Part shown: positions 34,385-41,227 of the stretch, piece after piece
Position numbering within the stretch: the stretch's first letter is position 1
Layout: each line of letters begins with the position of its first letter
The notes under the pieces: generated by a model
Database searches by the model: none
Told to the model about the DNA's origin: nothing
Seen by the model: only the letters and a program-made list of their open reading frames with translations
NCBI GenBank assembly: GCA_025330725.1
Contig: JAIWND010000064.1
Location: 1 to 64,000 of the forward strand
Source: Chlamydoabsidia padenii
Taxonomy: Eukaryota; Mucoromycota; Mucoromycetes; Mucorales; Cunninghamellaceae
Length of the DNA: 64,000 nt
Reading direction: 5' to 3'
Translations under genes and position numbers: made by a program

Positions 34385-36231
34385 TCATTGACCAAATGAA
34401 GCAGATAGATTGTTGAGGTCCAACTTTTCACATATACTGTTATGCATCATGTTGATAGGAGCATATCCATAGTTGGTGCCCTTTTTCATTGTAACGAGGT
34501 ATATGTGATCGGCGTGGAGGTTTAAAGCTATTGGTCGATATGATTTGTATTTGTGATTTGTTAATGACAAGTACAAAGTCGAATGATTGGGACCATGGAA
34601 TTCGATAGGCGCTTCAAATGTGTCAGCGGCCAACTGAGAGCACACTGGGTCAGTAAACCAGAAGTCCCTGTTATGAAGGCAATTTCCAGTGTTCATTAAA
34701 AGCGCCTCCAGTTTGCCGAAGGAGTCTTCTTTGTTGATCCAGGTACTTTTTTCGTAATCGCCCTTTATTTCTCGAAGCTTTTCTAACATCTTCGTTTTGA
34801 CGTCCATGTACTTTTTTTCGTCACCAAAGACAGCCATTGCCACACACCGAAAACCACAGTTACCATCACCTTTGGGATTATAGACATTTGAAACTTTGGA
34901 AATTTTGACTTCGGATCCGAGGACATGCATCAAACTATTCTTCTTCAGATTTGCTTTGCGCCTAAAAAAATTGGTGCCGCTAACTTTACCTCTTTTTTTT
35001 TTTTTTGATATCCTACTACCTTTTGAGATAAGCTTTCGCAATCACACCTTTGTCGGCTGTGTAGTCATCGACAAGCTGATTAAAAACCTTCAATTGGTCT
35101 TCAAAGTAATCAATAGAGTGAGAGTGGATCATGTTGTATAATGCACGTTCAGTTTTCTCCTAGCCATCGTTGTCCTTGAAGTGTCGTTCCAGTTTCAGCT
35201 TGAAGTTGCGCATCATATGAATGTAGCATAATAAAGTGGAGGCTTCGGGAAACACGATCTTGATACTGGTAGTCAGAGCGTTTTCTTGATCCGTCACAAA
35301 GACAGCAGGTCGCCAGAAGGAGTCGGCAGGGAAGACAGAGGATTCCAGCTGCTTCAAGAGCCACGTATATGACTCGGTAGTTTCATTAGAGATCCATCCA
35401 CCGGCAACGGCGAACGTCATCAAAGAATCCGCCTTTCCACAACAAACGTTGTCTACATCCACCATGTTGACCAAGGTAGCTTATTCCTGTTTGTCTTGTA
35501 AGTTGCATCAATAATGACCACCTCCGGAAAGCGTCTTGCCTGTTTGATGCAAACGTTGTGAGTGAAGAACATGCTGGCAGTTCGTTTTTTTCGTTCACAG
35601 CCCATCGTACATCGTAGCCTGCCTCCTGGAGTTTACTAATAAAGTTAAATATGCGGCGTACCTTTAAATCTTCAGTAACACCAGTACGCCTGTATCGCAT
35701 GTTTGAGATGTCCTTGGCGAGAAGATTTGATCGGTCACCGAATTCGACTTTGCAGTTGCTGATGATGACCTGGTTTGATCCCCGAGAAGCCAAGAGTTTA
35801 TCCACATGGGAATCTTGATCACCAACCACCTTTCGATTCATCACATAAGTAGAGAGACATCCCGCCAACGGATGATTATGTTGATCCATCATCGAAGTAA
35901 TGACCCAACGTTCCGCCTTGTGAATCACCTTGCTTGCCTGACGTCGGTAAATGTTGACCAAATAAGGGCACCCCATACGGAAAGTTTTCGTTTCACATCC
36001 TTCAATTTGGTTTCCTTCTTCACTAGAGTCCCCGTTCATAGCACCTTTGGCTTGACGATATACACCACCATGTTTACATTTCCACGATATAAACCCACAT
36101 TTGTAATCGCTTTTCTTTGTTACAATACTGATATTTTGTTGCCGAGAGTACGCCAAACGATGTTCATTCAAAGCATCGACATCAGAGAATTTCATACCGA
36201 CTGTCAATTCAAGATATTGGTTATCGCTCAT
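34385..36231 (-). pseudogene. MULE transposase with C-terminal OTU cysteine protease, broken
   Basis: From the ATG at 36231 (MSDNQYLELTVGMKF): a FAR1-like zinc region (KCGFISWKCKHGGVYRQ, GCPYLVNIY, DQHNHPL); then YDVRWAVNEKNEL; one frame shift to FFTHNVCIKQARRFPEVV and IIDATYKTNRNKLP; another shift to LVNMVDVDNVCCGK; then FVTDQENAL and LCYIHMMRNFKLKL of the DDE core. A TAG follows NDG at about 35160, and two more stops occur before SKKKKRGK. The last 218-codon frame (35041-34385) is an OTU domain with the catalytic block PKGDGNCGFRCVAMAVFGD and a candidate His in ADHIYLV, both intact. OTU proteases cleave ubiquitin-type chains. The MULE C-terminal part between DDE and OTU looks shortened. The copy is inactive, with two frameshifts and at least three stops. 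Confidence 0.85.
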
Positions 36232-36627
36232 AATGTTTGTAAGAGAATAAAAGCAAAGCAAAGGTAAAGTTAAATAGAGTGTAAATTAAAAAGATAATGG
36301 TTTATTCAATCAACTAATGCAAGATGTATATACACTAATGCTAAGGTCTAAAAAAGTGAGAGAATAATAAAGGATAAAAAAAGGAAGAGAGTAACAAGTG
36401 ACAAAAAAGGAGAGGAATAACAAAGATGAAGTTTGGAAGTCATGGCACATTTAAGGATTCAAGGTCAATGCCTACCACGAGAAGGATAATAGTAATGGTG
36501 ATAATCATATATTAAGATTTAGATTAAAGGATGAGGAAGAGGAAGAAGAGGAAGAAGAGGGAAAAAATGCTTGAACTTTTTCTTTGTTCATTTCCTCCAT
36601 TTTATCCACTGGCGCATAAAACCAATT

Positions 36628-36689
36628 AAAAGACCGCAAAACGATTTTATACATTTTTAATTCCCGCTACTGGTGCGCCGAGTCATGGC
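36628..36689 (-). repeat. Right terminal inverted repeat of MULE-OTU
   Basis: Reads AAAGACCGCAAAACGATTTT inward side first and ends GGTGCGCCGAGTCATGGC at the outer border. It lies about 400 bp upstream of the transposase start. Confidence 0.9.
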
Positions 36690-36756
36690 ATTATATATGA
36701 GTATGGTACAAAGAGGTGACAACCTCCCTGCGCCAGTGACTATTTCCATAGTGACA

Positions 36757-37160
36757 GAGTCAATGATACTTCCATATGATTGCCATGACTGTGTCGATCC
36801 ATCGCACGAGGACTTTGTTTTTGGTGTTTGGGTTCGTCATGATTGCCCAGATTGTTTGTTGAGATGGAGGGAACACGGGGCCAGCCCACAGGTGATCTTT
36901 AACAGTACATCCCAAGAAGAAATGGTAGTAGTCTTCTATTGTTTGAGTGCAATGAGCGCAGATTGGATCCAAATTCGTGTTTGTTGTTCGCTGTGCAATG
37001 CGCTCCTTCGTTGAAAGGGCACCATGGAGTAGCCGCCACCAAATTGTCGGCGTCTTGTGTTGCAGGACAATTTTCCTAAAAGCCTTCCACGTAGACTGTG
37101 GCAACCGCCAGCCCATTGAGATTTTCAAGAGAGGAGTAGGAAGACAAGTGAACCAGAGCC
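36757..37160 (-). pseudogene. LINE reverse-transcriptase 3' relic (zf-RVT)
   Basis: A minus-strand ORF of 122 codons from 37128 contains WWRLLHGALSTKERIAQRT and the zinc-binding CAHCTQTIEDYYHFFLGC followed by a Trp (KDHLW). This is the zf-RVT segment found after the reverse transcriptase domain of non-LTR retrotransposons. No RT core motif remains. No poly(A) tail or target duplication was identified. It abuts the right repeat of the MULE-OTU element and is distinct in sequence from the LINE at 58.5-59.2 kb. Confidence 0.78.
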
Positions 37161-37237
37161 GTTATGGTTGAAGTTGAGATGAAGTACCTCAAGATTATGA
37201 TGAACTTTTTAAGTACCTCAAAATTAACAGCACCCCC

Positions 37238-39589
37238 ATGGTAGTAGTAGAAGCAAAGACTGTCCAAATCACAATTTTACCCTGGATGAGACGATAAGAA
37301 ACGCCTTTGATGGTCCTTATGATACTTACACCATTTCTATCCCTTTGTCCTCATTTCTGAATAATCAAGATCTTTTACCACCGATAGTAGAGAAAGTTAC
37401 TGCTCTTTCAAGCTTTCTTTGTGATATTATTTTCAAGGCTCAGCTTCTGGTTAACTTTAATATAACTCAAAACCATGCAACTATTTTCAATGACATTTGC
37501 GATCAAACTTTTGGTACACCATGTGCCGAATTATATATGGTAGACGATGCTCAAACAAGGTACCCTGGATTTATTAGCCTTCAACATTCCTATGACACGC
37601 TTACTTCGACTTACAATATTAATCTTTTGGTGCCCTTGAATAATCTGCGTAATTATGGTCAAATTGTTTCCACTGCTTGTGTTACTCTTTCTACTTGTTA
37701 TAACAACTATTATGTGGAAAACTTTGAAAGCATTGGTGCAAACTATTTCATCAACTCCATCAAGAATGAACATCAGGTACATATGATTTGAATTCTCTTA
37801 AAAAGGTTGAAACTAATTGTTTTATGATATTATGTAGACTTTGCCAATGGGACGTATCAAGAACCTTGTATTTGATCATATTTTAGACCGAGTCTTTCTG
37901 CACAGATAGCCTCTTGAGATTATTGAAGCAATGTTCCCTAACAGTCCTGCTATAATTCCTGAACTCCAACATCAAGTTGCTAGGCTCATTACTTCTATCA
38001 CGAACAGACTACCTGCAGAGCCTATCACAAAAGTTACCATTTCTGCAAACCCTATCAGTGTCATGTCTGATTTTAGACATATATTAGAAACTTATGAGAC
38101 CAATATCAGGCTTTCAGCTGCTCAAGAAGATGATGCTCAAGAAGGTGATGCTCAACGGCGCGTACCTCTACTGCCTGAAGAAGGCGTCCCTGTAGTACCA
38201 GCTAGACCTGTTCAATCAAGGTTGTTCTCTCTGTTTCCTAGTCCTAGTTTTAAATGGCGCTTCATAAAAATGGATTCTCAAAACGTTCTTTCGTTCTTTT
38301 CAGCAGAGAATCGACCTACCAGAATAGCGGCCGATACAGACATGGCACATACACGACAAATTTTTAACCATTACTTCAATTTCGATAAATTGAGAGTTAA
38401 ATAATAAGTGGAAACACAAATTGTTATATTCGAATTATAGACTGATGCATATTATTTTCTTATACCAATAGAGCTGACAATCAAGGCAATGCAACCCCGG
38501 ACCGTATGTTCATGAACTCTGTCTACACTGATGGTCATACCTGTCGTGTTCTTTTTGCTCACAAGGTGGTTACAAATCCTTTGGATGCTGTTGAGCTGAC
38601 TCTTGATGACTTTACTGAAGAAGAAGTGAACCAAGCGTTTCGGATATGTACTCTTGACCCTGGAAGAAAAGATGCGTTTGTCTCATATCATGGTGGAAAT
38701 CAAGTCAGAAAGCTCACTACTGCTGAATACTATCATGTGTCTAGTACTCCTAACAGAATGAAGAAAAAAGATGCTCCCAAGATTGAACAAGGCATAAAGC
38801 AGCTCGAAACTAATATACATACGCCTAAGACAATACTATCAGTTAATTACCTTTTGCACGCTGTATACATGAACGCCTATCTTCGCACGTTTTTTGGCTT
38901 TTATGGCTTCCGCACTGTGTCTATTAACTAGGTTAACTATCATGGTCGTCAGGAAGCATTTGATCTTTGTACCAATATTCTCATTGATGGCTCCAAGAAG
39001 TACATCCAGGGAGCTAGACAAAAACACAAGACAAACAAAAAAAAAAAAAAAGCCGAAAAAGGTTCGTTCTAGGCGGCGCCCAGGTGTTCAATCTAGAGGA
39101 GGAAACCTACATACTACTCATACACATCGAAATGTAGTCCAAGAAGGAGAAAGAAACAACATGCCTTTGGTGGTTTTCGGTGACGGTCTAAAGAGCAAAG
39201 AGAGCGTCAGGTTTCGTGGTCTATGTCATTGTGCCTCTTCAGTGATCTACAATTATCTACACAAAAGGCAAAAGGAGAACCAGGTCTTTGTTCTTGATAT
39301 CAATGAATTCCGAACTTCTCGAGTCTGTAACAACTGTCGGAATCATACCAACATGTTTAACTTTGTCCGTCCCGACAGGAAACGTATCCACCAGATATTG
39401 ATCTGCAACGATTGTAATATTTACTGGAACCGCGATGTCAGGGCTACAAAGAACATGTGGACTATTGCTACTTCTATTTTGGCTGGTAATGGTCGTCCTT
39501 ATGTCCTCACTCGACAACGTCAGTTACAAGAACGGCAAGAACAACAAGAACAACAAGAAAAGCAAGAAAAGCGACATGAACAACAATAA
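37238..39589 (+). pseudogene. Fanzor (TnpB-like RNA-guided nuclease), near full length, broken
   Basis: A likely start at 37238 gives MVVVEAKTVQITILP, then a one-base loss in a C run shifts to LDETIRNAFDGPYDTYTI. The long N-terminal domain continues through an intron (about 37775-37838), an in-frame TAG at 37907, and a second intron ending AATAG at about 38471. RuvC-I is FRICTLDPGRKDAFVSY (Asp near 38656). A TAG follows GFRTVSIN near 38929, then NYHGRQEAFDL continues in frame until a slip in a 15-A lysine run near 39048. The last frame has PLVVFGDGLKSKES (RuvC-II region), DINEFRTSRVCNNC and ICNDC (CxxC...CxxC zinc ribbon), and RuvC-III WNRDVRATKNM (Asp near 39434), then a Gln/Glu tail. Fanzors use a guide RNA transcribed from their 3' flank. 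Two stops and two shifts argue for a recent corpse. Confidence 0.85.

Positions 39590-41227
<1,638 letters not shown>

Follow-up and report, generated by a model that had tools for sequence, protein, structure and literature searches.

A dead Fanzor remnant, probably carried by a Tc1/mariner-type transposon, in the Mucorales fungus Chlamydoabsidia padenii

Fanzors are eukaryotic relatives of TnpB and Cas12 and act as RNA-guided DNA cutters. A passage of Bao and Jurka 2013 (PMC3627910) gives the Fanzor pattern as D-X(125,275)-[TS][TS]-X-X-[C4 zinc finger]-X(5,50)-RD, and a section of another account (PMC10711439) names two hallmarks, DPG at RuvC-I and a glutamate that precedes the zinc finger by six residues. 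The presence of Fanzor1 inside mariner elements is already known from part of the former source (PMC3627910), in which PGv-1 and PUl-4 are Fanzor1 elements of Tc1/mariner. Both differ from the family described here in their hosts, and PUl-4, a Fanzor-only element with mariner-type repeats and a TA duplication, appears similar to it. In the same part, three Fanzor1 elements of Mucorales with MuDR-type ends, ROr-4, PBl-3 and MCi-4, are placed in MuDR. SpuFz1, the Fanzor1 of Spizellomyces punctatus (8gkh), is an active enzyme with a known guide RNA, whereas the copy described here is a truncated pseudogene. The sequence match between SpuFz1 and our family covers only portions of RuvC and of the zinc ribbon, where the RuvC-I aspartate (DP), the glutamate beside the zinc ribbon and WNRD are aligned. 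A search of titles and abstract openings in the open-licence literature found no published account of the mariner-ended Fanzor elements of Mucorales that are presented here.

In this study, we analysed a 64-kb stretch of C. padenii DNA (contig JAIWND010000064.1, positions 1 to 64,000; the window in what follows). We conclude, with a probability of roughly 0.85, that it preserves a Fanzor1-type gene in dead, fragmentary form and that this gene was carried, in this soil fungus, by a Tc1/mariner-type DNA transposon. By analogy with other, published Fanzors, the 3' end of the element would have been transcribed into a guide RNA bound by the intact protein, adjoining host sequence would have been used as the guide, and the RuvC domain would have cut matching sites. 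None of these steps is open to the window copy, which has lost its left third next to a LINE fragment and in which the reading frame, the splice sites and the right end are all damaged.

Motifs, relatives and lesions of the window copy

Four large open frames, of 187, 164, 161 and 238 aa, lie on the plus strand in the stretch 37228-39589. The features of the locus are given below in window coordinates. Sisters are the copies L033, L031, L032 and L054 elsewhere in the genome.

36688-37235, minus strand: fragment of a LINE-type element (zf-RVT; PF13966, E=4e-9), adjoining the broken left edge
37236-39871, plus strand: 5'-truncated remnant of a transposon copy with a Fanzor gene; its last bases are ACTG, with TA after them (BLAST against three sister loci)
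37238-37776, plus strand: N-terminal coding remnant, beginning inside a zinc-knuckle-like motif (second half ...HGSSRSKDCPNH...; open frame)
37500-37545, plus strand: local frame shift, from 1-base and 11-base losses relative to all four sisters (alignment)
37777-37837, plus strand: predicted intron 1, 61 nt, GT...AG, with identical limits in all five copies (placed from the flanking frames)
37907-37909, plus strand: in-frame TAG, also in L032 and absent from L033, L031 and L054 (alignment)
38404-38465, plus strand: predicted position of intron 2 (placed from frames and alignment)
38653-38673, plus strand: RuvC-I motif LDPGRKD, with the catalytic D of DPG type (motif scan, alignment of relatives)
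38929-38931, plus strand: in-frame TAG, absent from the three sisters that cover the site (alignment)
39037-39051, plus strand: A15 run with 7 extra bases relative to the three sisters that cover the site, and a frame change (alignment)
39305-39307, plus strand: shifted RuvC-II glutamate of Fanzors, within NEFRTSRVCNNC (E six residues before CxxC)
39326-39415, plus strand: TNB zinc ribbon, CNNC ... CNDC (PF07282, E=2.1e-8)
39425-39436, plus strand: RuvC-III WNRD, with the catalytic D (PDB match, motif scan)
39590-39867, plus strand: 3' noncoding stretch conserved among copies, a possible source of guide RNA scaffold (sister comparison)
39868-39873, plus strand: right end, ACTG and TA; inner repeat with an 11-base deletion (alignment of ends)

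The initial annotation had called this locus a Fanzor gene and had named a profile search as a check; the domain matches bear this out. The 238-aa frame matched PF07282 (TNB zinc ribbon) at E=2.1e-8 with 34.6 bits, above the curated cut-off of 26.3, and zero Pfam families above cut-off were obtained with the other three frames (187, 164 and 161 aa). In the PDB, the 238-aa frame had three matches, the best of which was the S. punctatus Fanzor (8gkh, E=0.0011) and the others Cas12f (0.18). The same structure was the sole match of the 354-aa frame of sister L033 (E=2.5e-7). The other solved Fanzors, GtFz1 and PpFz1, were absent from the PDB matches of both frames, and the RuvC-I frame of the window alone had no PDB match. 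The structure predicted for the L033 354-aa frame (AlphaFold, 13 sequences) was poor, with a mean pLDDT of 50.5, and provides no fold evidence.

LDPGRKD, the two CxxC knuckles (39326-39337 and 39404-39415) and WNRD follow each other on the plus strand in the order first described, and the three catalytic positions are all kept (DPG, the shifted glutamate and NRD). The pattern E-x6-CxxC-x(8,40)-CxxC-x(3,7)-RD occurs a single time in the six frames of the 64-kb window. Since this occurrence is single and the PF07282 match exceeds the curated cut-off, the zinc-ribbon/RuvC motif match is not a chance one. Counted across the lesions, ~219 codons separate the DPG aspartate from TSRVC, after which CNNC..CNDC and RD follow, in agreement with the pattern of Bao and Jurka. 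Likewise, LDPG at 38653 and EFRTSRVCNNC at 39305 agree with the hallmarks in the cited section of PMC10711439. VVFGDG had been taken for the RuvC-II region. As a catalytic RuvC-II site it was rejected, because the alignment and the definition given in that section place the glutamate six residues ahead of the zinc ribbon, at 39305; VVFGDG lies upstream of this residue and is conserved among the aligned relatives. Judged from its sequence, the feature is a Fanzor pseudogene. Fanzor1 genes ride on varied eukaryotic transposons and not on IS607. The best PDB match, itself a Fanzor1, and the mariner-like ends suggest that the window copy is probably a Fanzor1 rather than a Fanzor2.

When 5.8 billion proteins were searched with the zinc-ribbon frame, two matches were obtained, the first being P0001 (C. 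padenii BC941DRAFT_441990). This is a 222-aa protein that the public annotation models from the sister on contig C39, which holds one sister copy. The L033 354-aa frame found 36 relatives at E<=0.001 (4 nameless, 32 named), and the named ones belong to Chlamydoabsidia, Mucor, Rhizopus, Benjaminiella, Gilbertella and Cokeromyces, all of which are Mucorales genera. The best relative outside the species was P0003 of Mucor circinelloides (49% identity over 94% of the query), whose model starts inside the gene and whose motifs stand in the same order as in the window's family. Identity over shorter stretches reaches 63%. P0005 of Benjaminiella poitrasii is longer than P0003, and its model lacks the first CxxC. 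Both proteins share the motif order and the GDGL and DINE(F/Y) stretches with our family, and P0005 also the zinc-knuckle-like motif. They differ from it in that their frames are open and in their distance (49% and 43% identity to L033). Open RuvC/zinc-ribbon halves are present in proteins of other Mucorales, such as P0003.

The copy had been described as nearly full-length, a description that does not survive comparison with the sisters. In BLAST comparisons, three sister loci align with the window from 37236 to a 3' end that they have in common, beyond which their flanks differ, and all four sisters reach ~1.13-1.18 kb further left, through N-terminal coding frames and the first half of the zinc-knuckle-like motif. 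The window copy thus lacks ~1.16 kb at its left, comprising N-terminal exons, half of this motif and the left end of the element. The ATG at 37238 was rejected as a start, as the sisters continue upstream of it. In L033 the zinc-knuckle-like motif reads CKSCKQLGHGSSRSKDCPNHNF, and P0005 and P0029 carry a similar one; its match to the Pfam zinc knuckle (E=0.14) is under the cut-off.

The inactivation itself is well founded: truncation, two stops, frame shifts and altered splice sites leave no intact reading frame with all domains. The two TAG codons of the initial annotation were found again at 37907-37909 and 38929-38931, and the proposed slip in the A15 run coincides with the frame change at 39037-39051. 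The one-base loss near the N-terminus was likewise located, near 37505, and a further loss of 11 bases near 37540 puts the frame back (both relative to the four sisters). The sisters' frame over 37500-37545 resembles P0005. The lesions had been held to be only these; however, changes in both splice sites of intron 2 and the 11-base deletion in the right end had been missed. Compared with L033, L031 and L054, the window copy has other dinucleotides at both the donor and the acceptor of intron 2; L032 has a changed donor as well and keeps the acceptor.

Several neighbours of the remnant were also observed. Repeat copies of the LINE fragment start at 36688 and end near 37225-37236. The sequence at 36300-36676 is partly repeated elsewhere, and 35386-36285 on the minus strand contains a 299-aa frame whose FAR1/MuDR-type DNA-binding match is weak and misses the cut-off (E=0.0025). 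About 350 bases downstream of the end of the dead Fanzor, 40215-40788 is presumably ubiquitin fused to ribosomal protein L40.

Sister copies and their divergence

The window's own assembly (34.2 Mb, 95 contigs) was searched for related copies. This search scores the best candidates, so that copy counts are lower bounds. At least four sisters (L033, L031, L032 and L054) with 91-92% DNA identity were found. Two of them lie on one contig (C48) in opposite orientation and are 99.2% identical, and the sister on C35 ends inside the RuvC half. An intact sister had been expected somewhere in this genome. It was not seen among the copies found, each of the four having in-frame stops in the parts compared (3 in L033, 2 in L031, 5 in L032 and 3 in L054) and one lacking the 3' half; an intact member of the window's family among these copies was accordingly rejected, and the search for intact paralogues advised earlier gave broken sisters among its best candidates.

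A TAA is common to all four sisters at the codon homologous to window position 38482, where the window copy has none. The TAG at 37907, which the window copy shares with L032, conflicts with this TAA on a simple tree, and at least one of the two has therefore arisen twice by recurrent mutation or was exchanged between copies. In pairwise comparison, the window copy stands apart (94.0-94.7% identity to the others, compared with 94.9-99.2% among the sisters). It differs from the sisters by 5.3-6.0% of nucleotides, with a dS of ~0.075-0.080 and dN/dS of 0.60-0.77. These distances come without a clock and do not support the description of the gene as recently inactivated.

It might be supposed that expression of the zinc-ribbon half continues and yields a shortened protein, such as an RNA- or DNA-binding fragment. 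The frames of 238 aa in the window and 354 aa in L033 are open, dN/dS is below 1 (0.60 between window and L033), and P0001 is a public model of 222 aa made from the C39 sister. However, the zinc-ribbon motif is interrupted by a stop in L032, L031 carries a frame shift, and the dN/dS values over all pairs compared (0.59-0.85) fit earlier constraint mixed with decay. We regard such a protein as highly improbable, and the reading of the locus as a dead gene is kept.

Between L033 and L031, 29 of 3749 sites are different; the two copies lie in different flanks and have two stops in common. The simplest reading of this combination is transposition in trans after inactivation. Segmental duplication would offer another origin for the sisters, and the two copies on C48, 99.2% identical and in opposite orientation, are what it might leave behind. 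It does not account for the right boundary common to four copies, nor for the nearly common left boundary of L033, L054 and L031, beyond which the flanks differ, and its probability appears to be very small. Under the preferred reading, transposition, the family would have been moved in trans by the DDE_3 transposases of elements with like ends in the same genome, and it probably spread in part after its Fanzor was broken.

Element ends and resident mariner elements

Four copies have the right end ...AAACTGTA in common, and beyond it each has a flank of its own. On the opposite strand, this end reads TACAGTTTAT[TC]AACTTCAAATTGAGAC in those three sisters in which it is present. The left end of L033 and L054 is TACAGT...ATTGAGAC; the left TACAGT was not seen in L031 and L032. 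Imperfect 27-bp inverted repeats at both ends (TA|CAGT...ACTG|TA) are thus found in one of the five copies, L033. L054 has the left end only (its 3' part is missing), L031 and L032 the right end only, and the window copy has lost its left end and carries a damaged right repeat. The left and right repeats of L033 agree at 19/27 bases, and the left repeat of L054 agrees with the right one of L033 at 21/27.

With up to 3 mismatches, the end pattern, which was derived from the window's family itself, had 47 matches in the whole genome, compared with 6 for a reversed control. A DDE_3 match within 1.7 kb is faced by 14 of these 47. At C54, C86 and C10, complete repeat pairs enclose DDE_3. These Tc1/mariner elements share the 27-bp terminal repeat with our family (the ends of C10 and C54 agree with the right end of L033 at 21-23/27 bases). 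They differ in having a transposase and no Fanzor, in their length of ~1.75-1.8 kb between outer repeat edges and in having both ends of one type. The frames of the C10 and C54 elements match DDE_3 but are interrupted or overlapping when read without introns. No transposase family was recognised in the four long frames of L033, none of 87 DDE_3 matches lies inside a sister element, and no empty insertion site was seen. As a separate observation, short elements of ~692 bp at G000:C28, C41 and C62 are bounded by repeats in three complete pairs and hold a DDE_3 remnant; they are probably internally deleted mariner derivatives.

A second Fanzor family bears on the same question. The 5.4-kb element L039 321-5724 (G000:C67:1169820-1175223) has both mariner-type ends, and its left end is identical to the C54 repeat over 27/27 bases. 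This identity supports a Tc1/mariner home for the C67 Fanzor element and, less firmly, for the window's family, in which the repeats are imperfect and TA on both sides is a short signature. It is possible to suppose instead that our family belongs to another superfamily (MuDR with 9-bp duplications, Helitron or an unclassified one) and that its likeness to mariner is a coincidence. The placement of the Mucorales elements ROr-4, PBl-3 and MCi-4 in MuDR agrees with this, as do the missing left TACAGT of L031 and L032 and the lack of such ends, even with up to 5 mismatches allowed, at 12 of the 13 oriented loci of other Fanzors. On the other hand, the right ends of three sisters and of the Fanzor loci on C8 and C67 match the pattern with TA adjoining, and C67 has both ends. 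We therefore consider another superfamily unlikely and retain the Tc1/mariner assignment.

Other Fanzor loci were met in the course of the search. PF07282 was matched at 43 places in the genome at E<=1, and 30 of these are above the curated cut-off; by these sequence matches the fungus is rich in Fanzor-like genes, including more distant Fanzor families. The C67 element contains long open pieces of 781, 160 and 147 aa, which could be exons of a whole gene, and long Q/T/N repeats. At G000:C8:705583-706154 a right-type end equals that of L033 over 27/27 bases and adjoins a Fanzor zinc ribbon 25% identical to that of the window, which is the same end with a different Fanzor. Three copies of yet another family (L034, L035 and L036) lie on one contig, G000:C43. 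They have no stop in the zinc-ribbon match, their ends are not of the mariner type searched, and L035 and L036 are 99.6% identical over 3.8 kb, which suggests recent movement.

The 3' flank had been proposed to hold the guide-RNA region, and comparison of paralogue flanks to reveal a conserved boundary and structure. The boundary is there: 39590-39867 is conserved to a sharp limit, and three sisters match it at 86, 88 and 94% identity (two of these matches cover part of it). The structure did not follow, as no RNA fold was better than shuffled (5 sequences, z -0.5 to 2.1), and the three Rfam matches of the region were each below their own gathering score. Some published Fanzor1 guide RNAs are predicted, in the cited section of PMC10711439, to include the terminal repeat and the target duplication, a layout in keeping with this position. 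A guide-RNA region in the 3' stretch is possible from sequence conservation, without support from folding or Rfam.

The element ends themselves fall into types. TTAT stands at positions 7-10 in 7 of the 47 end matches, and left ends and transposase-only elements seen read TACAGTA... or near forms. A position up to 1 kb downstream of a zinc-ribbon match, in the right orientation, is occupied by 5/7 ends of the TTAT type and 0/40 of the others (Fisher one-sided 1.4e-5), a value that overstates the evidence, because the types were split after the matches had been seen and a single family supplies 3 of the 5 supporting ends. For 2/7 right-type ends no zinc ribbon was found nearby. Counted from the other side, a mariner-type right end lies no more than 1 kb away for only 5 of the 43 zinc-ribbon places in the genome, and these 5 do not include the window copy. 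We tentatively propose, as a conjecture that is more probably wrong than right, that in the Fanzor mariner elements of this genome a special right repeat (TACAGTTTAT...) adjoins the 3' end of the Fanzor, and that this repeat might combine two roles, as a site for the transposase and as the 3' guide-RNA scaffold. The latter role is suggested by the terminal repeats predicted in published Fanzor1 guide RNAs (section cited of PMC10711439). A Fanzor would then hitch to a resident transposon by changing one end, and copies with a broken Fanzor would still spread in trans.

How Fanzors live with host transposons is not settled. The window copy itself is only a fossil, less complete and less clearly recent than had been claimed. 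The most informative part of the finding is the ends that the family has in common with resident mariner elements, together with the distinct right end. A single genome combines a Fanzor element with a candidate transposase for its movement, and with copies in which transposition seems to have continued after the Fanzor frame was disrupted. Two questions thereby become testable, namely whether the Fanzor is needed in cis and whether the terminal repeat doubles as a guide-RNA scaffold.
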